In this document: positions 4,227 through 35,148 of the stretch, one piece after another
Numbering within the stretch: position 1 is the stretch's first letter
How the letters are laid out: the number at the start of each line of letters is the position of its first letter
Source: Pseudomonadota bacterium
GTDB lineage: Bacteria; Bdellovibrionota_B; Oligoflexia; Oligoflexales; CAIYRB01
Assembly: GCA_026390435.1 (NCBI GenBank)
Contig: JAPLFY010000028.1
Span: forward strand, 1-64,000
Direction of reading: 5' to 3'
DNA: 64,000 nucleotides
Made by a program: the position numbers and the translations under genes
Notes under the pieces: model-generated
Told to the model about the DNA's origin: nothing
Database searches by the model: none
What the model saw: only the letters and a program-made list of their open reading frames with translations

Positions 4227-4377
4227 AGGGGGACCTCTCATGAAAGTCATTGAAGATGGGCTCAGTCTGAAGCGGTCTAAAAGTGCCGGCTAAACATAAC
4301 AGATTTATCTTTCGGGCTCCAGCTGGGCGCGTATGCGGCAGAATAATACAATAAATTTGGATATTTAGAATGCTAAA

Positions 4378-5751
4378 TTACTGCCCTCTCAACAATCGAT
4401 TTAGCTCGCCGGCGAAATAAAGGGGCAAATGATAAAGCTGAAACTCAGCTCGCCGTGCCCCTTCTGGGGTCGGCACCTCATGATTGGCCCGCTCAATTGC
4501 TGGCAGGTCCAAACTGAACTTAACGGCACGACGGCACCCCCGTAGCGCGACAAATTGCAGCAATGATTTAAGCGCACCAGACTTACCACTTTTTACTTCA
4601 ATAGGAAGAATTTCGGTGCCTTTCTGAACTAAGAAATCGACTTCTGCATTGCCCGTTTTACCTTCACGGAGCCAGTAGTAGAGGGTCTGATGATCCTTAG
4701 CACTGGCAAAATCTGTCAGATGCTGTGCGACAAACTGCTCAGCCAACTTCCCTTTAAAAAATAGGGACTCATCTGTACCCGTTAGCGGTAGATCCATGCC
4801 GACCATTCGGTTGAGTAGACCAATATCCAGCCAATACGATTTAAAAACTTTGTCATCCACCTGAGCACTCAGGGGCACTCCGTCACCAGATGTGTGTAAA
4901 GCCGGCCTCACCAGGCGAGCTTGCACTAAATGCTGAATACAGGTTCGTACCTGCGCAGCGCGCTTATCGGGGGCAATATTGCTAGCCTTGATCTTGTGAC
5001 CAATTTCGCGGGGGAGACGGTCATAGACGCTTTGCAATAACGGGATTTGAGATTTTTTCTCATACTTTGCAAAGTCATCTCGGTAGGTACCGACTATATT
5101 ATCCTGCAAGCCTACCCAATCACCGCCGCGGGGATGCTTGCAATGATAGGCAACTACCTCTGGCATTCCACCCAGTAAAAAATATGTTCGCAGTAATTTC
5201 TTTAATTGCTCATGCAGGCTCAACGGCCACGGCTTACCAAGTTCATAGGTTTGAATTTGCTCAAGTAACCATGGCTCACCTTTCGCCAACAAAAACTCGG
5301 CAAACGTGAGCGGTTGCATAAACATGTATTGAATACGCCCTACCGGCATCGAGAACGAATGGTCAGAAAGCGCAAACTCCAGCAGTGAGCCGGCGGCGAT
5401 CACCGGCAGCTGTGGCCACTCCTCGTGAAAATAACGCAAGGCAGCAAGAGCATGGGGTGTGGCCTGGACTTCGTCGAGAAAGAGAAGGCCAGCTTGGTCA
5501 TCAATCCCTTTTTTCAGAGCACCCTCAAGCTCGCTACGAATCACACCAAGGTCCAAAGTAGCAAAAGTTTTATCGAGAGAGGGATAGCGCTCCAGATTTA
5601 TCTCGTAGAGAGTCCGCTTTTGACTTTCAGCAAACATACGTACCGCGGTTGATTTACCAACCTGCCTAGCACCGCGTAAAACCAAAGGCTTCCTCGTCGA
5701 AGATGATATCCAATGATTTAAGTATGTTATAGAATTTCTATACAGAAACAC
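4378..5751 (-). CDS. AAA-family ATPase with DUF4143 C-terminal domain
   Basis: Member of the AAA_14/DUF4143 ATPases common in prokaryotes as stand-alone, patchily distributed genes of unresolved role. The P-loop GARQVGKST lies near residue 27, a Walker B-like LLFLDEVQ near 93, and IAAGSLLEF (sensor 1 region) near 118. The C-terminal half has the nuclease-like core VDFLVQKGTEILPIEVKSGKSG seen in DUF4143. 457 residues is within the usual range. The only usable start is GTG, which abuts an AAGGGG and lies inside a perfect inverted repeat (see 5746-5794). It has no functional partner beside it. Confidence 0.88.
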   Translation of the reverse strand: MFLYRNSITYLNHWISSSTRKPLVLRGARQVGKSTAVRMFAESQKRTLYEINLERYPSLDKTFATLDLGVIRSELEGALKKGIDDQAGLLFLDEVQATPHALAALRYFHEEWPQLPVIAAGSLLEFALSDHSFSMPVGRIQYMFMQPLTFAEFLLAKGEPWLLEQIQTYELGKPWPLSLHEQLKKLLRTYFLLGGMPEVVAYHCKHPRGGDWVGLQDNIVGTYRDDFAKYEKKSQIPLLQSVYDRLPREIGHKIKASNIAPDKRAAQVRTCIQHLVQARLVRPALHTSGDGVPLSAQVDDKVFKSYWLDIGLLNRMVGMDLPLTGTDESLFFKGKLAEQFVAQHLTDFASAKDHQTLYYWLREGKTGNAEVDFLVQKGTEILPIEVKSGKSGALKSLLQFVALRGCRRAVKFSLDLPAIERANHEVPTPEGARRAEFQLYHLPLYFAGELNRLLRGQ

Positions 5752-5794
5752 CCCCTTATTTTGTCACACTTGATGCTAAAACATGGGGGTGTTT
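5746..5794 (-). promoter_or_regulatory. Inverted repeat covering the start of the AAA ATPase gene
   Basis: Perfect 10-bp arms AAACACCCCC (5746-5755) and GGGGGTGTTT (5785-5794) are separated by 29 bases. In the minus-strand transcript the second arm contains both the G-rich ribosome-binding stretch and the GTG start, so pairing would hide the start. It could equally be a protein operator. Confidence 0.55.
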
Positions 5795-5860
5795 TAGTCA
5801 ATTCGGCCAAAATCATGCTATCGCGACGAGGTGCTTATTCACTGAAATCGAGGCCTTAAT

Positions 5861-7054
5861 TTAAATCACCCCGTCCGCCGCCAGCTTTGCCACGGCCTCA
5901 GCATCAAGCCCCAACCAATCGCCGAGAATTTGCTCGTTATCAGCGCCCAAACTCGGCGGAGCGCGCACCTCGACCGGGTCTGCCACCAGCGGCGACCGCA
6001 GCAAATCCACGTCACTGCCATCAGGCCTTTTCGCTTTGATTTTAAATCTTCGATTCGCAGCTAGATCACTGTGCATCAGAGTCGCCAAATCCCAGATCGG
6101 ACCGCACGGAACTTTTGCCGCAGTCAGGTCGTGAATCCATTGCTCTGTGGAGCGCTGCTTCAACCAACTCCCGACCTGGGGAATCAACGCCTCACGATGG
6201 CGCACTCGGCTCTCGTTGGTGGCAAAGCGCGCGTCCACGGCCATATCATCATGCTCCGCAACCTTACAGAAACGCCGCCACTGTGCGTCATTTCCGACTG
6301 CAAGCACTAGCCATCCGTTGGCAGTGGCAAAGGCCTCGTAAGGAACAATCTGTGCGTGGGCGTTACCTTGGCGCGCTGGCACTTTGCCGGTGGTCAAAAA
6401 ACTCTGACCTACATTCGCCATACTCGCCACAGCACAGTCAATCAAAGCTAATTCGATGGCATAACCATGGCCGGACTGCGCCCTACCGCGCAGTGCTGCA
6501 AGCACAGCGACTGCAGCATAAAGTCCAGTGGTAATGTCTGCGATGGCGACACCAAATTTACTCGGCGGTCCCTCTTTAGGTCCCGTCGCCGCCATCATCC
6601 CACTCATGCCCTGCACGACAAAATCGTAGCCTGGTCTGTCCGCATCAGGACCGGAGCGCCCGAATCCAGACAGCGAACAAATAATCAGCCGCGGATTACG
6701 CTGGTGCATAGTTGCGGCGTCCATGCCGAGATCATGCACTGAATCGGCGCGAAAATTCTCGAGGACAATATCACTGCGCTCAACAAGCTTAAGCCACAGC
6801 TCGCGCCCAGCTGCCTGCTTAAGGTCGAGGGTAAGCGAGCGCTTGCCGCGATTGCACGACATAAAATAAGCACTAAGGTCATCAAGATACGGAGGACCCC
6901 AAGCTCGGGTGTCATCACCACTGCCGGGTTGCTCGATCTTGACCACTTCAGCACCTAGGTCAGCGAGGATCTGCCCCGCGTAAGGCCCGGCCAGCACGCG
7001 CGAGGCATCTAACACGCGCAGGCCCTGCAAGCTCTGCGCTAAATCAGAGCTCAT
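5861..7054 (-). CDS. CaiB/BaiF-type class III CoA-transferase
   Basis: Predicted cytosolic enzyme that moves CoA between carboxylic acids. Family features are present in order: LRVLDASRVLAGPYAGQILADLGAEVVKIE at the N-terminus, NRGKRSLTLDLK, and ADITTGLYAA, whose Asp is the usual covalent catalytic residue. 397 residues is typical. The start codon overlaps the stop of the murG-like gene (ATGA), so it is translated at the end of that operon. The substrate is unknown; formyl-, succinyl- and alpha-methylacyl-CoA enzymes share this fold. Confidence 0.92.
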   Translation of the reverse strand: MSSDLAQSLQGLRVLDASRVLAGPYAGQILADLGAEVVKIEQPGSGDDTRAWGPPYLDDLSAYFMSCNRGKRSLTLDLKQAAGRELWLKLVERSDIVLENFRADSVHDLGMDAATMHQRNPRLIICSLSGFGRSGPDADRPGYDFVVQGMSGMMAATGPKEGPPSKFGVAIADITTGLYAAVAVLAALRGRAQSGHGYAIELALIDCAVASMANVGQSFLTTGKVPARQGNAHAQIVPYEAFATANGWLVLAVGNDAQWRRFCKVAEHDDMAVDARFATNESRVRHREALIPQVGSWLKQRSTEQWIHDLTAAKVPCGPIWDLATLMHSDLAANRRFKIKAKRPDGSDVDLLRSPLVADPVEVRAPPSLGADNEQILGDWLGLDAEAVAKLAADGVI

Positions 7055-29374: not shown

Positions 29375-30178
29375 ATGTCGCAATCAGTTGCACGAAAGAG
29401 CTCCGCGTCTAAGCCGATGTCAAAATCTGCGCCTTCCGCATTATGGCATGGCCTCGACGCTCACCTGTCACGTGGAAACCGCACAGTTCGCGTTGGTGAC
29501 ACGACATTTGCACTGAACTGCCTTGAGGACATGGAAGAGGCATTCCAGCAGAGCTTCAAAGCCCTCCCTCACGAGGGGCGAGCAATAGCAGCAGGCAACG
29601 CCGCTGAGCTAACCCCACATTTTGGTGTCGTCTGGCCGTCAGCGGTGGGCCTTGCCGAACACGTTCAACAATTTCTCGACGCTGGCAACTCGCCAATCAC
29701 GACCCTTGAACTCGGCTGCGGTCTCGGCCTGCCAAGCATAGTTGCCGCTAAGCGAGGAGTGACACGGGTCATCGCCACCGATCGCCACCCACTGGTGTCG
29801 CAATTCCTCGACCGCAATGCGGCCAACAACAGCCTGCAACCGATTCATTATCAGTCCCTCGATTGGCGCGACTTAAATGAGACCTCAACCTTAGGGCTAA
29901 AGCAGCAGGTCGATTTGCTCATGGGGAGTGATCTGCTTTACGAAGCTTGGCAGCCAGGCTTTCTGGCGGCAGCAGTGGCCCACCTCTTGGCTCCAGATGG
30001 CGTCGCCATGTTGGCAGACCCAGGACGAAAATACATGGATGAATTCCTGGATTTAAGTGCGGCGCATAACATCACGTGCAGAGAGACCTGCTTACGCAGG
30101 GTTCAGCTCGGCGAGGCCGTCAGCGATGTGCTCGTCATCGAGCTAGTGTGGATAAATTTCCAGGATGAGAAATTCTGA
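29375..30178 (+). CDS. Class I SAM methyltransferase, METTL/Methyltransf_16-like
   Basis: Predicted methyltransferase. SAM-binding motif I is LELGCGLGLPSIVAAKRG near residue 109, followed by the acidic TDRHP. The post-motif MGSDLLYEAW corresponds to the DxxY segment of the METTL20/21-type protein-lysine methyltransferases. The first ~25 residues are Ser/Lys-rich and an inner start at MSKSAP (residue 15) is possible; neither has a clear ribosome site. The target protein is unknown. Immediately upstream of tRNA-Ala. Confidence 0.75.
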   Translation: MSQSVARKSSASKPMSKSAPSALWHGLDAHLSRGNRTVRVGDTTFALNCLEDMEEAFQQSFKALPHEGRAIAAGNAAELTPHFGVVWPSAVGLAEHVQQFLDAGNSPITTLELGCGLGLPSIVAAKRGVTRVIATDRHPLVSQFLDRNAANNSLQPIHYQSLDWRDLNETSTLGLKQQVDLLMGSDLLYEAWQPGFLAAAVAHLLAPDGVAMLADPGRKYMDEFLDLSAAHNITCRETCLRRVQLGEAVSDVLVIELVWINFQDEKF

Positions 30179-30221
30179 CTTGCGCTCCTGATTTCGATTA
30201 GGCATAGTTGGTCGCTGTTAC

Positions 30222-30297
30222 GGGGGATTAGCTCAGTTGGTAGAGCACTAGATTTGCATTCTAGGGGTCAGGAGTTCGAATCTCCTATCCTCCACCA
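30222..30297 (+). tRNA. tRNA-Ala (anticodon UGC)
   Basis: Complete cloverleaf: acceptor GGGGGAT/ATCCTCC with the G3-U70 pair that defines alanine tRNAs, D arm GCTCAGTTGGTAGAGC, anticodon stem CTAGA/TCTAG with loop TTTGCAT, T arm AGGAG-TTCGAAT-CTCCT and an encoded CCA. It is not part of an rRNA operon here. Confidence 0.97.
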
Positions 30298-30313
30298 TAA
30301 CAAAAAATAGTCG

Positions 30314-30350
30314 AACCCTAGATTTTCCAAAATCTGGGGTTTTTCTTTTT
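30314..30350 (+). terminator. Intrinsic terminator after tRNA-Ala
   Basis: Arms AACCCTAGATTTT and AAAATCTGGGGTT pair over 13 positions with one G-U and a very short loop, followed by TTTTTCTTTTT. Confidence 0.9.
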
Positions 30351-30417
30351 CAGCACCAATCGGCCCGGCCTCAGCGCCAGGCCACGTTGCTTACGCCCTG
30401 CTAGCGCAGCATTGTTC

Positions 30418-30978
30418 TCACCAGGAGGAATGACAGCCCCATTCATCCTCAGGGAATACACAGTAGTCGCCACGAGGTGATTTAAGTCGCGAGAATACCC
30501 ACAATCGCCCTACTTTTTCCGCTTGGCGCTCCTGGCTAACAAAACTCCCTGCGATGCAGGCTATGGGTGTATTTTTTAAAATTTTGCGCAGTATCCACAT
30601 CTGGTCTCGGCAGTAAGACTCTCCGTAACCTCGTCTGTACATGTAAGTGTCTGAGTATCGACCAACCTCTACCTTTAATTCTGGATCGGATCCTTCAGAT
30701 TCAGATTCAGATTCAGATTCAGATTCAGATTCCGAATCCTCAACCGAGGTGCAATAAATGCGAATTTTGCGGGTATCAAAACATTGCCAAGCAGTTGCTC
30801 CATTGTCGCGAAAGTCCTTACCGTAGTGCCGCGCTATATCTTTGCGGCCATACGCTAGATCTCGTTCATCCAGGACACCAAATGTAGGCGTCAAGAAGAC
30901 ATCATCACCCGAGATGGGAGCATCCTGTGCGAATAGGTTTGTAGCTAATAAACTTAGCAGCAAATGTGCTACTGACAT
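30418..30978 (-). CDS. Exported Cys-containing protein with Ser-Glu repeat
   Basis: Unknown family. The N-terminus [18 protein letters not shown] is a signal peptide. In the middle (near residue 83) a run of seven Ser-Glu dipeptides (DSESESESESESESEG) is encoded by a hexanucleotide microsatellite. Several cysteines occur on both sides of it (QCF, IYC, YCRD, IACIAG, YCVF, GCHSSW), suggesting disulphides outside the cytoplasm. It is the last gene of a three-gene overlapping operon and overlaps the SLT-domain gene by 10 bp. Ribosome site is weak. Confidence 0.65.
   Translation of the reverse strand: MSVAHLLLSLLATNLFAQDAPISGDDVFLTPTFGVLDERDLAYGRKDIARHYGKDFRDNGATAWQCFDTRKIRIYCTSVEDSESESESESESESEGSDPELKVEVGRYSDTYMYRRGYGESYCRDQMWILRKILKNTPIACIAGSFVSQERQAEKVGRLWVFSRLKSPRGDYCVFPEDEWGCHSSW
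30694..30732. repeat. Hexanucleotide microsatellite (TTCAGA)6.5
   Basis: Six and a half perfect copies of TTCAGA inside the Ser-Glu coding stretch of the gene at 30418. Unit changes would keep frame and alter the number of Ser-Glu pairs. Confidence 0.95.
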
Positions 30979-31889
30979 TTTTCTAATTTTTCCATGAACG
31001 TGCGGAATGGCAGCATTTTTCTTGCTAGTTCGTCCGCTGGTTTATTGCGATAACCCTTGTAAAATATGACCGTTTCATCCCAAGACACATCACCACCTAG
31101 CTTCGCTTCAGCAAGTTTCCTTTTGTGAAACAACCAGCGAATCCCAACGCAAATATTGACGGTCGGCTCCATAAGGTCTTCGCCGTTGACATCAACTAGG
31201 TGATCTTTCACCTCAATATTGCGACTTCGGAGCACTCGCAGTGTCCCGTCAGTTACCTGCATCAAGCCGTAAACCTTACCTTCACCTTTGCCGGCCGGCC
31301 GAGATTTAAGATTGTTGAACGAGGACTCCGACGCAATCAGAGCCTTCACCACGTTCGGCGTAAGCGCAATACGCGGCTTCATCACATCATTCCAGTATTT
31401 GACCCATCCAGCGATATACGAATCAACATTTTGGCGACTATCGAACTCATACATTTTAGGGCATGGCAGGGCATCAATCGCACCCAAATGAATCCGAGAA
31501 ATTTCTATAATCTCGGCAGCATTTAGCACGTCAAGCCTAGCCCTATTTTTCTGGCAATAGGCCTTAACGGCAGTGGTCTTGCCCCCCCCCAGTTTGCGAA
31601 CGTGCGCCTTTACAAAATGAGACCCTATTGGACAAACGCGCCACGCATGAATTTCTCCACCACCAACGGGGGCAAGAAGCTTGTCAAGGCCGTCAACGGA
31701 CTCGCCCTCTCCCGATGAGGAGGATTGCTCGGCAATTATCCTCTCTAGTTGTCGAGCCAGCTTCATGAACGGCTTCATGATCCGCTCTTTATGACGATGC
31801 GCTCGCTTTTTTTGTTGGATGACCTTTGGAAAATTTTTCAAAGCCAGTTGGATGTCCGCAAGAATCTTCTCTCTTTCTTCCGGACTCAT
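30969..31889 (-). CDS. SLT/lysozyme-fold domain protein without signal peptide
   Basis: C-terminal half matches the lytic-transglycosylase (SLT) fold: VKALIASESSFNN with catalytic-type Glu188, KVYGLMQVTDGTLRVL (208-220), NICVGIRWLFHKRKLAE (Asn245) and the WDETVIFYKGY ending. Such domains cleave peptidoglycan. The N-terminal half is unrecognised: a basic helical segment (residues 1-55) and a VCPIGSHFVKAHVRK...AVKAYCQKN module (85-115). There is no signal peptide, unusual for an enzyme acting on the wall. Overlaps the kinase gene by 4 bp (ATGA) and the exported protein by 10 bp. It may be an effector or a non-catalytic derivative. Confidence 0.72.
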   Translation of the reverse strand: MSPEEREKILADIQLALKNFPKVIQQKKRAHRHKERIMKPFMKLARQLERIIAEQSSSSGEGESVDGLDKLLAPVGGGEIHAWRVCPIGSHFVKAHVRKLGGGKTTAVKAYCQKNRARLDVLNAAEIIEISRIHLGAIDALPCPKMYEFDSRQNVDSYIAGWVKYWNDVMKPRIALTPNVVKALIASESSFNNLKSRPAGKGEGKVYGLMQVTDGTLRVLRSRNIEVKDHLVDVNGEDLMEPTVNICVGIRWLFHKRKLAEAKLGGDVSWDETVIFYKGYRNKPADELARKMLPFRTFMEKLEKCQ

Positions 31890-32479
31890 AGTGCTTCCTC
31901 GTGGATGAGGTTAGTAACAAACTCGGTTTGAAGCCGCTCTGGGAGCTGATCGAATTCATGTTTACTCATCGTCAGTACTGGAGACGCTGATGAATTGTCA
32001 AACATGTACCAATCAACGGCTACAGGCCGATACACATACCAAAAGTTTCTGAAACAACGAGGATAGCGGCGGCGCACTGCATCACTAGGAATATCATGGC
32101 CACCAAGTTTCACGCGTTCACGAATCCGCTTCAGGTTTTTTGCCACATCGTCTAAGTATAAAAAATAAATAGTAGTTTCGTAACCTTGCCTCTTCGCCTC
32201 CACAAGTGTCGGTAGCCACGACTTACCGGATAATGTCGATTCAAAACCGAAGCTCTCACCTCGAGCGATTCGACTTTTCACCTCGGATATCAAGATGCGC
32301 CCTGCCTGGAAAGCGGCCTTCTCAAAATCACCAGGCGCAATACCAGAGGCAATCAAGTCTGGGTTCAAAAAAACTGATTTGTGCTTCGTCCTGAGAAAAT
32401 AGGACTCGGCGAATGTCGATTTTCCGCTCCCATTTGGTCCCGCCACGATCTCAATAACTTTGGTCTGCGATGTTTTAAT
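31886..32479 (-). CDS. Zeta-toxin-like P-loop kinase/ATPase (COG4185 type)
   Basis: Related to zeta toxins, which phosphorylate UDP-N-acetylglucosamine and block wall synthesis. Walker A GPNGSGKST is followed by VFLNPDLIASGI and GFESTLSGKSW, then IRERVKLGGHDIPSDAVRRRYPR with the conserved arginines. A GTG at 32446 would start within the first beta strand and cut it off. Extending upstream, the strand KVIEIVAG is restored and the only start with a ribosome site is ATT at 32477-32479, seven bases after AGGAG; a stop precedes it. No small epsilon-like antitoxin gene is seen upstream. First gene of the operon with the SLT protein. Confidence 0.72.
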   Translation of the reverse strand: MKTSQTKVIEIVAGPNGSGKSTFAESYFLRTKHKSVFLNPDLIASGIAPGDFEKAAFQAGRILISEVKSRIARGESFGFESTLSGKSWLPTLVEAKRQGYETTIYFLYLDDVAKNLKRIRERVKLGGHDIPSDAVRRRYPRCFRNFWYVYRPVAVDWYMFDNSSASPVLTMSKHEFDQLPERLQTEFVTNLIHEEAL

Positions 32480-32664
32480 AAGCTATCTCCTAGCAAGGCA
32501 AATAATTGCCTAGCCGCCAAATAAGACCATGAAAACAGCAAAAGTATACAGTACTTCTCGCCCTAACTAAAGCGCCCTGTAGAAACGAGATCATTGTCGG
32601 TGGGCGTTAAACACATCGCAATGCCCAAGCCCCGCCCCAATGACTCAATTTACCTTATGGCTCC

Positions 32665-32744
32665 TGGGTGATACGGTCGCCTACGTGGGACCCAGACATG
32701 TGAGTTCCACGCAATGGAGCACCGCCAGTGGAGCCTATCACCCA
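32665..32744 (+). promoter_or_regulatory. Long-range complementary pair around the P-ATPase start
   Basis: TGGGTGATA (32665-32673) is perfectly complementary to TATCACCCA (32736-32744), which lies in codons 3-6 of the ATPase gene. A competing pair CTGGGT/ACCCAG sits at 32664-32669 and 32690-32695. Pairing of the first set would enclose the ribosome site and GTG. Confidence 0.35.
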
Positions 32745-35148
32745 AAAACCTTACTCAGGACTGAGCAGCGAAGCGGCAGCAAATCTCCTCGCTCAGCACG
32801 GCCGCAACGAGATCGAACAAAGCAAGACACGATCTCCCTGGCAGCTACTCTTTGAACAGTTCAAAAGCCCGCTAGTCGTCATACTCATCTTTGCTTGCGC
32901 ACTGTCTGCCGCATTAGGCGAGGTCGTTGAATCTGCTGCGATAGGAGCGATCTTAGCGCTAAATGCCTTGATTGGTTTCTTTCAGGAGTACCGCGCTGAA
33001 ACTGCAATCTTGGCGCTTCAAGAAATCACTGCTCCCAGAGCAAAAGTCATCCGAGATGGGCGCCAGTTAATCATTCCTGCTCGCGACGTAGTTCCTGGCG
33101 AAATCCTACTGCTAGAAGCTGGTGACATCGTAGCTGCTGACTCAGAGATTGTAGAATCGTCTCACTTACAGGTGAACGAAGCCATTTTAACTGGCGAGAG
33201 CCGCCCCGCCAGAAAAGCGCTGCCCAATCCAACCGCCACTCAACCACCAAACGAACGTGACAGTTTGGTATTTATGGGAACCGCGGTGGTCACTGGCACA
33301 GCTTTAGTCAAAGCCACAGCAACCGGCATGAGGACAGAGCTCGGGCGCATCGCTAAACTAATTTCCACTGCCGAATCAGGACCCACGCCGCTGCAAGTCC
33401 AGTTAGCAAACGTGGGGAGATCGTTACTTTTAATTTGTCTAGCAGTGGTCACCGTCGTAGCTATCATCGGTATCGCTCAAGGGCGATCCTGGCTGGATAT
33501 TTTGGTGTTTTCTGTCTCACTCGCAGTCGCTGCAGTACCGGAGGGCATGCCAGCAATTGTCACCGTCGCACTGGCCCTGGGAGTGCAGCGATTAGCCGCG
33601 CGCAATGCCCTGATCAGAAAACTACCCAGCGTAGAAACCCTCGGCAGCGTCTCCGTCATCTGCACAGACAAAACCGGAACACTGACCACAGGACAAATGC
33701 GAGTCAGAGACATCTGGGGCGAAGACCCTACCGAGATCTTGCGCGCTGCGGCTTCCTGTTGTGATGCAGAACTTGATCTGCAGGGTAACAGTGGTACCGG
33801 CGACCCTACCGAAATCGCCATTTTGATTGCTGCACTCGAAAGAGGAATAAGCAAAGAGACGATCGAAAGCGCAAACCCAAGGACATCTTCAGAGCCATTT
33901 GATGCCGAGCGCCGCCGTATGTCGGTACTTAGGCAAGACTCAGTTAATTACGTAAAAGGTGCATCAGAGACGATTTTTGCTCTTTCGAACCTTTCTTACG
34001 CACATCTTCAGGACGCGACAAAGGCAGCAACAGACATGTCGGCACGTGGCCTTCGGGTACTGGCAGTTGCTATAGGTCATGGACCCGGTGAGAGAAATTT
34101 ACAGTTTTTGGGCCTCCTCGGTATCGCTGATCCACCGCGAATAGAGGCAGCTGATTCCATCAGAGAGGCACGGCGTGCAGGAATTATTCCGGTGATGATC
34201 ACCGGAGATCATCCGCACACTGCCGCCGCCATCGCTCGCGAACTCGGACTATTACTCGAAGGCGAAGCCGTCGACTCCCGAGTGCATGCACGCGCAACAC
34301 CCGAGGACAAGCTCAAGTTAGTTCGCAAGTGGAAAAGCGAAGGCCATATCGTGGCCATGACAGGTGACGGCGTCAACGACGCACCCGCTCTCAGAGAAGC
34401 ACATATCGGCATCGCTATGGGTCGAAGCGGCACCGAAGTGACCCGCCAAGCCTCCGACCTTATTCTCGCAGATGACAATTTTGCCACCATTGTCGCCGCC
34501 GTACGCGAGGGACGAGGGATTTTTGAAAACATAAGACGATCGATCAGTTACCTTTTGACCGGTAATTTGGCCGAGATCGCCGTAGTGCTGGGAGCTATCA
34601 TTCTCTCGCTGCCACTGCCCCTGCTGGCTCCGCACCTACTGTGGATCAATTTAGTCACGGATGCACTACCGGCACTTACATTGATCGTAGAGAAATTGTC
34701 ACCAAACATCATGACACGTCCACCGCGGTCAAAAAACGAGCCCCTATTGGGGCGTCCAGAATGGATGCAAATTATCGCGGTGGGACTCCTCGAAGCGGCC
34801 GTTTCCCTTGGCCTATACTGGTACCTGCTTAAAGAGCACGATGTTGACTATGCTCGCAGCATTTTATTTAGCGAAATAGTTTTCAGTCAATTAGTCAGAG
34901 CCTTCGGAGCCAGATCATCGACGCGGACTTTCTGGGAGGCCGGCCTGTTCAGCAATCTCTGGATACTAGCGATCGTCTTGATTACAGGACTAATACAAAT
35001 CAGCCTACATTACATCCCGGTCGCTCAACAAATGTTTGCGCTGCAGCCACTACACCTGGCCGATTTTTTACTGATTGGTCCATGCGCCCTAGTCACCGTT
35101 TCCGTCATTGAAATCAGGAAACTTCTGATGAGAGCATTTAAATCATAA
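32728..35148 (+). CDS. P2-type cation-transporting ATPase, Ca2+-ATPase-like
   Basis: Ten-span ion pump of 806 residues driven by ATP. TGES (155-158), PEGMP (271-275), phosphorylation motif DKTGT (314-318) and [12 protein letters not shown] are intact. Ca2+ ligand positions of SERCA are kept in M5 (NLAE) and M6 ([10 protein letters not shown]), so calcium or a similar divalent ion is the likely substrate; Mn2+ or Mg2+ cannot be excluded. The KGASE nucleotide-binding segment is present and the N domain is compact. The start is GTG with GGAG nine bases upstream. Stands alone. Confidence 0.9.

Follow-up and report, generated by a model that had tools for sequence, protein, structure and literature searches.

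Three overlapping genes beside a tRNA gene, coding for a zeta-like kinase, an SLT-domain protein and an exported protein, raise the question of whether they constitute one cell-wall-targeting or toxin/immunity module, as an earlier note on this DNA had proposed, and which of them belong together. The following features were assigned in the window (the whole stretch of DNA analysed; 64,000 nt):

31886..32479, minus strand: zeta-like P-loop ATPase/kinase (197 aa); ORF, Pfam and motifs matching relatives; start probably ATT at 32479
30969..31889, minus strand: leaderless SLT-domain protein (306 aa), proposed peptidoglycan-cleaving toxin; ORF, Pfam and profile alignment
30418..30978, minus strand: exported partner (186 aa), proposed periplasmic immunity/antitoxin protein; ORF and signal-peptide-like start
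30412..32656, no strand: probably acquired segment; missing in relative G017 (~90% identical)
30222..30297, plus strand: tRNA-Ala(TGC) bordering the segment

The three minus-strand genes are real and the tRNA-Ala(TGC) is present at 30222–30297; all coordinates and both ORF overlaps (zeta/SLT, 4 bp; SLT/exported gene, 10 bp) were found as the earlier note had given them. The overlaps suggest a single transcript for the three genes. The description of the SLT protein as lacking a signal peptide and of the third protein as exported agrees with the N-terminal hydrophobicity (Kyte–Doolittle only).

What is conserved is the SLT gene together with the exported gene, not the trio. Short leaderless relatives of the SLT protein were found in 8 of the 58 genomes of the class, that of the window included, at nine places (the window and L010–L017; a phylum-wide search drew the same number of genomes, 58). 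The zeta gene was not found at the eight other SLT loci (tblastn, E 0.01) and thus lies beside an SLT gene at one place in nine; the three families were never met together elsewhere. The gene after SLT overlaps or abuts it and has a leader-like start at seven of the eight places with a readable downstream side (window, L010, L011, L012, L013, L016, L017; leaders judged by hydrophobicity); at L014 no partner gene is located downstream of SLT, and at L015 the downstream side runs off the contig. Of the wall-targeting toxin/immunity module envisaged in the earlier note, the SLT/exported pair is therefore well supported, whereas its three-gene form is not. The best 12-residue Kyte–Doolittle mean within the first 45 residues was 2.02–3.11 in seven partners vs at most 1.56 in seven SLT starts, one of which was scored without its N-terminus. 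The start of the L010 partner is ambiguous: with ATG as start the overlap is 35 bp, and a TTG further on would leave a gap of 1 bp.

The SLT protein consists of residues 1–76 without known relative, a family-specific CPxGxHxVxxHxR domain (~77–150) and the SLT domain (~150–306); Pfam: SLT (PF01464), E 6e-6, 26.3 bits vs cut-off 21.3; relatives: 42.1 (L010), 39.5 (L011) and 36.3 bits (L012). Common to the relatives are the short length, the absence of a leader and the ~70-residue CPxGxHxVxxHxR domain before the SLT domain. Putative catalytic Glu188, identified from its similarity to MltC when aligned with the profile, lies in ASESSFN; its loss in most relatives, which the earlier note had named as evidence against the module, was not observed, since five of the six aligned proteins (window included) keep Glu in an ESSFN-type motif together with a GLMQ motif, as in MltC, and L014 alone has Ala at this position and GLML instead of GLMQ. 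Profile A2 matched six solved sequences at E 0.01, all MltC- and EmtA-type transglycosylases. AlphaFold models of SLT and partner (mean pLDDT 53.9 and 42.9) were too poor for use; Foldseek of the low-confidence SLT model found nothing at E 0.001; goose-type lysozymes were among the weak matches. None of the seven proteins (SLT and partner) submitted to PADLOC gave a match at E 0.1.

A six-member SLT profile gave matches in 46 of the 58 genomes; those beyond the nine places were low-scoring, part-length and mostly in long frames, and were taken as ordinary transglycosylases. The CPxGxH domain was considered as a shared delivery domain and rejected: a search with this domain by itself in 54 genomes gave SLT proteins only (six genomes), with the exception of one match at E 0.038 that has internal stops. 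Phages, plasmids and viral contigs (the last with two queries) gave no match to the SLT family, bar one plasmid match to 36% of the L012 protein, from a Paenibacillus plasmid protein annotated as lytic transglycosylase. A genome scan outside the phylum confirmed just L048 and L049; because this only scan used two narrow peptide patterns, the family may well be present in further lineages.

The exported partner of the window has a short hydrophobic start, six Cys (four in common with the L010 partner) and a Ser-Glu repeat; the repeat is real but missing from the L010 partner, i.e., not conserved. Pfam gave two matches only, E 0.23 and 0.26. An ATT located upstream could add basic residues before the leader.

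Global alignment sorts the partners into three or more families that differ from one another: a (window and L010), b (L011 and L013) and c (L012 and L016), with 0/1000 shuffles for each pair; the lowest values among the 12 cross-type comparisons were 11/1000 (window/L011), 38 (L011/L012) and 57 (L011/L016), the rest being 197 or more. The window and L010 partners are weakly alike on local alignment (59 of 2000 shuffles reach the score) and gave no BLASTP or tblastn match to one another. The short L017 partner may be a fourth type, because its likeness to type a is weak (41 and 24 of 2000 shuffles) and it is unmatched by the a-type profile. Partner profiles matched 3/54 (b/c) and 2/54 genomes (a), the matches being the profile members themselves; every partner copy detected was next to an SLT gene (profiles, 54 genomes; G003, with a b-type partner, lies outside this sample). 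Against solved structure sequences the best values were E 0.83 and 0.7, to unrelated proteins.

The SLT frame is broken or fragmentary at four of the nine places (L013, L015, L016, L017), some breaks being possibly errors of draft genomes. The partner is still open at L013 and L016 (165 and 304 aa), where the SLT frame is broken, and L014 is without partner and without the catalytic Glu; on these grounds the decay would look like that of a toxin left unguarded only when dead, the numbers being small and the genomes drafts. Direct repeats were seen at two places. At L016 (G015:C239) 177-nt repeats, 94% identical, at 2516–2692 and 5724–5900 enclose SLT, its partner and the DUF4143 ATPase gene, as would result from movement or exchange of this unit by recombination. 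At L011 (G040:C18) 49-nt repeats, 84% identical, at 4232–4280 and 5803–5851 surround SLT and partner; an integron was considered and rejected, the repeats having no obvious recombination-site form (by eye).

The slot upstream of the pair is filled by different same-strand genes: HTH and RelE-type genes at L012 (gap 45 nt), AbiEi/AbiEii at L017 (~50 nt) and DUF4143/AAA_14 ATPases at L010 and L016 (255 and 44 nt). With the window included, a toxin–antitoxin gene (three) or a DUF4143 ATPase of unknown function (two) is located there at five of the nine places, accessory regions being generally rich in such genes. The upstream gene at L011 gave no Pfam match at E 0.001; no toxin–antitoxin-type gene was seen upstream by eye at L013 and L014; at L015, DUF4143 and DUF1016 genes are near the SLT gene, not adjacent to it. 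At 4378–5751 the window holds a further ATPase gene that looks, by eye, like the AAA_14/DUF4143 type preceding SLT at L010 and L016.

The zeta frame extends over 197 codons back to ATT at 32479, with AGGAG just upstream; starting instead at the first ATG/GTG/TTG codon (GTG, 32446) would remove residues before the P-loop, and ATT at 32479, behind this strong Shine–Dalgarno sequence, is probably the start codon. Pfam: Zeta_toxin (PF06414), E 6.1e-5, 23.0 bits vs cut-off 22.3, i.e., barely above; AAA_33, 26.1 bits vs cut-off 27, i.e., below. P-loop kinase motifs, which link the protein to the Zeta toxin family (epsilon/zeta, PezAT) and to zeta-like ATPases that stand alone, are common to the window protein and six relatives; residues invariant among the seven include Walker A (AGPNGSGKS in the window), Asp41, Glu80, Arg118, Arg122, GGH, Arg138 and Asn145. 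Matches were obtained in 601 plasmid records; the 20 listed show 34–39% identity and are annotated as zeta toxin or AAA family, one as hypothetical. The zeta profile gave no match to solved structure sequences at E 0.01, and PADLOC at E 0.1 gave seven weak P-loop matches.

No antitoxin such as that of Zeta toxin–antitoxin systems was recognised beside the window gene, either by eye among the small upstream ORFs (25–58 aa) or on comparison of the SLT N-terminus. In seven plasmid stretches and in L086 and L087, relatives of zeta are flanked by small genes on at least one side; ten small neighbour proteins of other zetas gave no match to SLT residues 1–76 (best E 9.3), which leaves a fused antitoxin without support. 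The same residues matched only the window's own locus among the collected loci and gave two chance-level matches only among plasmids (E 6 and 9); a role as zeta antitoxin is not supported by these comparisons. Because RelE/HTH, AbiE or DUF4143-ATPase genes take this upstream position at four further loci, zeta is probably a separate toxin–antitoxin-type gene travelling with the SLT/exported pair.

The operon fills a 2.2-kb segment beside tRNA-Ala that is absent in a ~90% identical relative. In G017, of the same genus, the flanks align at ~90–92%, the tRNA-Ala is in place, and 275 bp stand in place of 30412–32656; in G014, the first matches to the ATPase gene that lies downstream in the window are within ~260 bp of the tRNA, which leaves no room for the operon (judged from the positions of tRNA and flanking-gene matches). 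GC is 45–51% in windows across the operon and mostly 51–61% in flanking windows, the right flank also falling to 47% near 35000. The accessory region proposed in the earlier note is supported by the lower GC and by the lack of the segment at this site in G017 and, from match positions, in G014; we infer that the segment was gained in the window's lineage rather than lost in both relatives. The insertion site of G017 (L083, G017:C178, 3894–4170) carries a different small ORF (MAQPLILGGIYTHYKG...), which we take to be DUF1653-like; the tRNA-Ala/ATPase gap is a variable spot, since this ORF occupies the same site. Integration at the tRNA was considered and rejected, no tRNA-end repeat being present in window 29800–33000. 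No phage genes were seen by eye beside the operon.

Secretion markers were searched in draft genomes, with seven carriers of the SLT family in the sample (carrier G003 lies outside it). T6SS marker PF05591: 0/7 carriers over cut-off; 8/54 genomes, all of one genus (g30, G050–G057), none with the SLT family. T4SS marker PF03135: 0/7 carriers; 1/54 genomes. T4SS marker PF19044: 0/7 carriers over cut-off; 15/54 genomes, among them G016 and G018, non-carriers of the window's genus; G044 gave 20.9 bits vs cut-off 25.8. PF14065 (Pvc16_N), presumably an eCIS marker: 0/54 genomes over cut-off and also 0/14 control genomes, i.e., without positive control. The T6SS and PF19044 searches work in this class, because 8 and 15 other genomes were found with them; the absence of markers is not proof, as the genomes are drafts only.

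From the evidence collected, we consider it rather probable, though by no means certain, that the SLT gene and the exported gene form a toxin/immunity pair attached to interchangeable toxin–antitoxin-type genes. Enzyme activity, inhibition, toxicity and export route are inferred as follows. The SLT protein would be made in the cytoplasm without signal peptide and would reach a periplasm, be it that of a competitor, a sibling or its own cell, where it would cut the glycan strands of peptidoglycan via the catalytic Glu of a lysozyme/SLT fold; the exported partner would sit in the periplasm and block the enzyme. Through the gene overlap, any cell producing the toxin would produce the shield as well. 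The upstream zeta-like ATPase would be a separate toxin–antitoxin-type gene carried along, as RelE/HTH, AbiE and the DUF4143-ATPase may be in the relatives.

Among known systems, Tse3 itself is likewise said to be without a signal peptide. The accessible part of PMC3792639 describes Tse3 as a T6SS muramidase effector with a C-terminal SLT-fold domain and catalytic Glu, and Tsi3 as its cognate inhibitor carrying a signal peptide, which makes Tse3/Tsi3 the nearest functional parallel. In contrast to it, the window family was not matched by Tse3 in sequence, profile A2 finding MltC-/EmtA-type transglycosylases instead; no T6SS marker was present in the carriers examined, and there are at least three unlike partner families. 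Similar to the pair is also XAC2609, a leaderless peptidoglycan glycosidase with the periplasmic inhibitor XAC2610 from the Xanthomonas T4SS X-Tfe/X-Tfi set (PMC10933484, accessible part), and one b-type partner weakly resembles the XAC2610 immunity family (1 of 4 b/c members, below cut-off). However, XAC2609 is a GH19 and the window protein an SLT-domain protein; X-Tfi genes are usually upstream (PMC6536674, accessible part), whereas the window partner is downstream; and no VirB4-type ATPase passed the cut-off in the carriers examined. We claim membership in neither the Tse3 nor the X-T4SS system, since searches of the carriers for the respective secretion machines found none. A literature search on lytic transglycosylase effectors with periplasmic immunity protein and SLT domain gave only the Tse3–Tsi3 paper; that on Oligoflexia and lytic transglycosylases gave, by title, none on such pairs; and that on a peptidoglycan hydrolase as toxin–antitoxin with periplasmic antitoxin gave no paper, which is weak evidence of novelty, subscription literature being mostly outside reach.

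That the pair acts on its own cell, as an addiction or abortive-infection system, is possible, though not likely. The SLT protein would leak into the own periplasm, the exported partner would be the antitoxin, and loss of the island or host shut-off would lead to lysis, all without a secretion machine; this is in line with the marker counts in the seven carriers, with the toxin–antitoxin genes or DUF4143 ATPases in front of the pair at five of nine places, and with the direct repeats around it at two. That a pair of this kind can have an effect when no secretion machine takes part is seen from leaderless XAC2609 of X. citri, which enters the own periplasm independently of the T4SS, is active there and harms cells without XAC2610, the protein that otherwise holds it (PMC10933484, accessible part). 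Conflict between cells, however, is the better fit for a toxin family that has three or more unlike partner families, and a leaderless toxin with a leadered antidote would be an odd design. A wider formulation, speculative and unlikely as it stands, is that of a secretion-independent class of wall-cutting toxin–antitoxin systems, in which a leaderless lytic transglycosylase and a periplasmic antitoxin behind interchangeable classical toxin–antitoxin genes would make up compound modules for addiction or suicide defence, in hosts where the search for T6SS, T4SS and eCIS gave nothing.

Remodelling, conjugation and phage functions frequently involve SLT domains, and the SLT protein might accordingly be a housekeeping or mobile-element helper, i.e., an enzyme of wall remodelling comparable to the conjugation protein VirB1 or to phage endolysins, the exported protein being unrelated or a cooperating envelope protein. 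The X-T4SS VirB1 proteins are likewise without signal sequence (PMC6536674, accessible part); nevertheless, the lack of a conjugation-type ATPase over cut-off in the seven carriers, of phage, plasmid or viral-contig matches other than the partial one on the Paenibacillus plasmid, and of visible phage genes beside the operon make this role improbable. Least probable of all, and very much so, is a three-gene wall weapon, in which zeta would drain precursors, SLT would cut the wall and the exported protein would be the shared immunity: the overlaps suggesting one transcript and the presence of both Zeta and SLT domains among X-T4SS effectors (PMC6536674, accessible part) speak for it, but zeta accompanies SLT at a single place, its relatives adjoin other small genes, and its Pfam match is marginal.

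The toxin/immunity pair is thus the reading retained. If true, it would mean wall-cutting toxins with periplasmic shields, antibacterial or self-acting, in genomes of a little-studied group that lack the known injection machines, and would point to an undescribed delivery route or to toxin–antitoxin systems acting outside the cytoplasm; the partners, in three or more families, would then be candidates for inhibitors of SLT-type enzymes.
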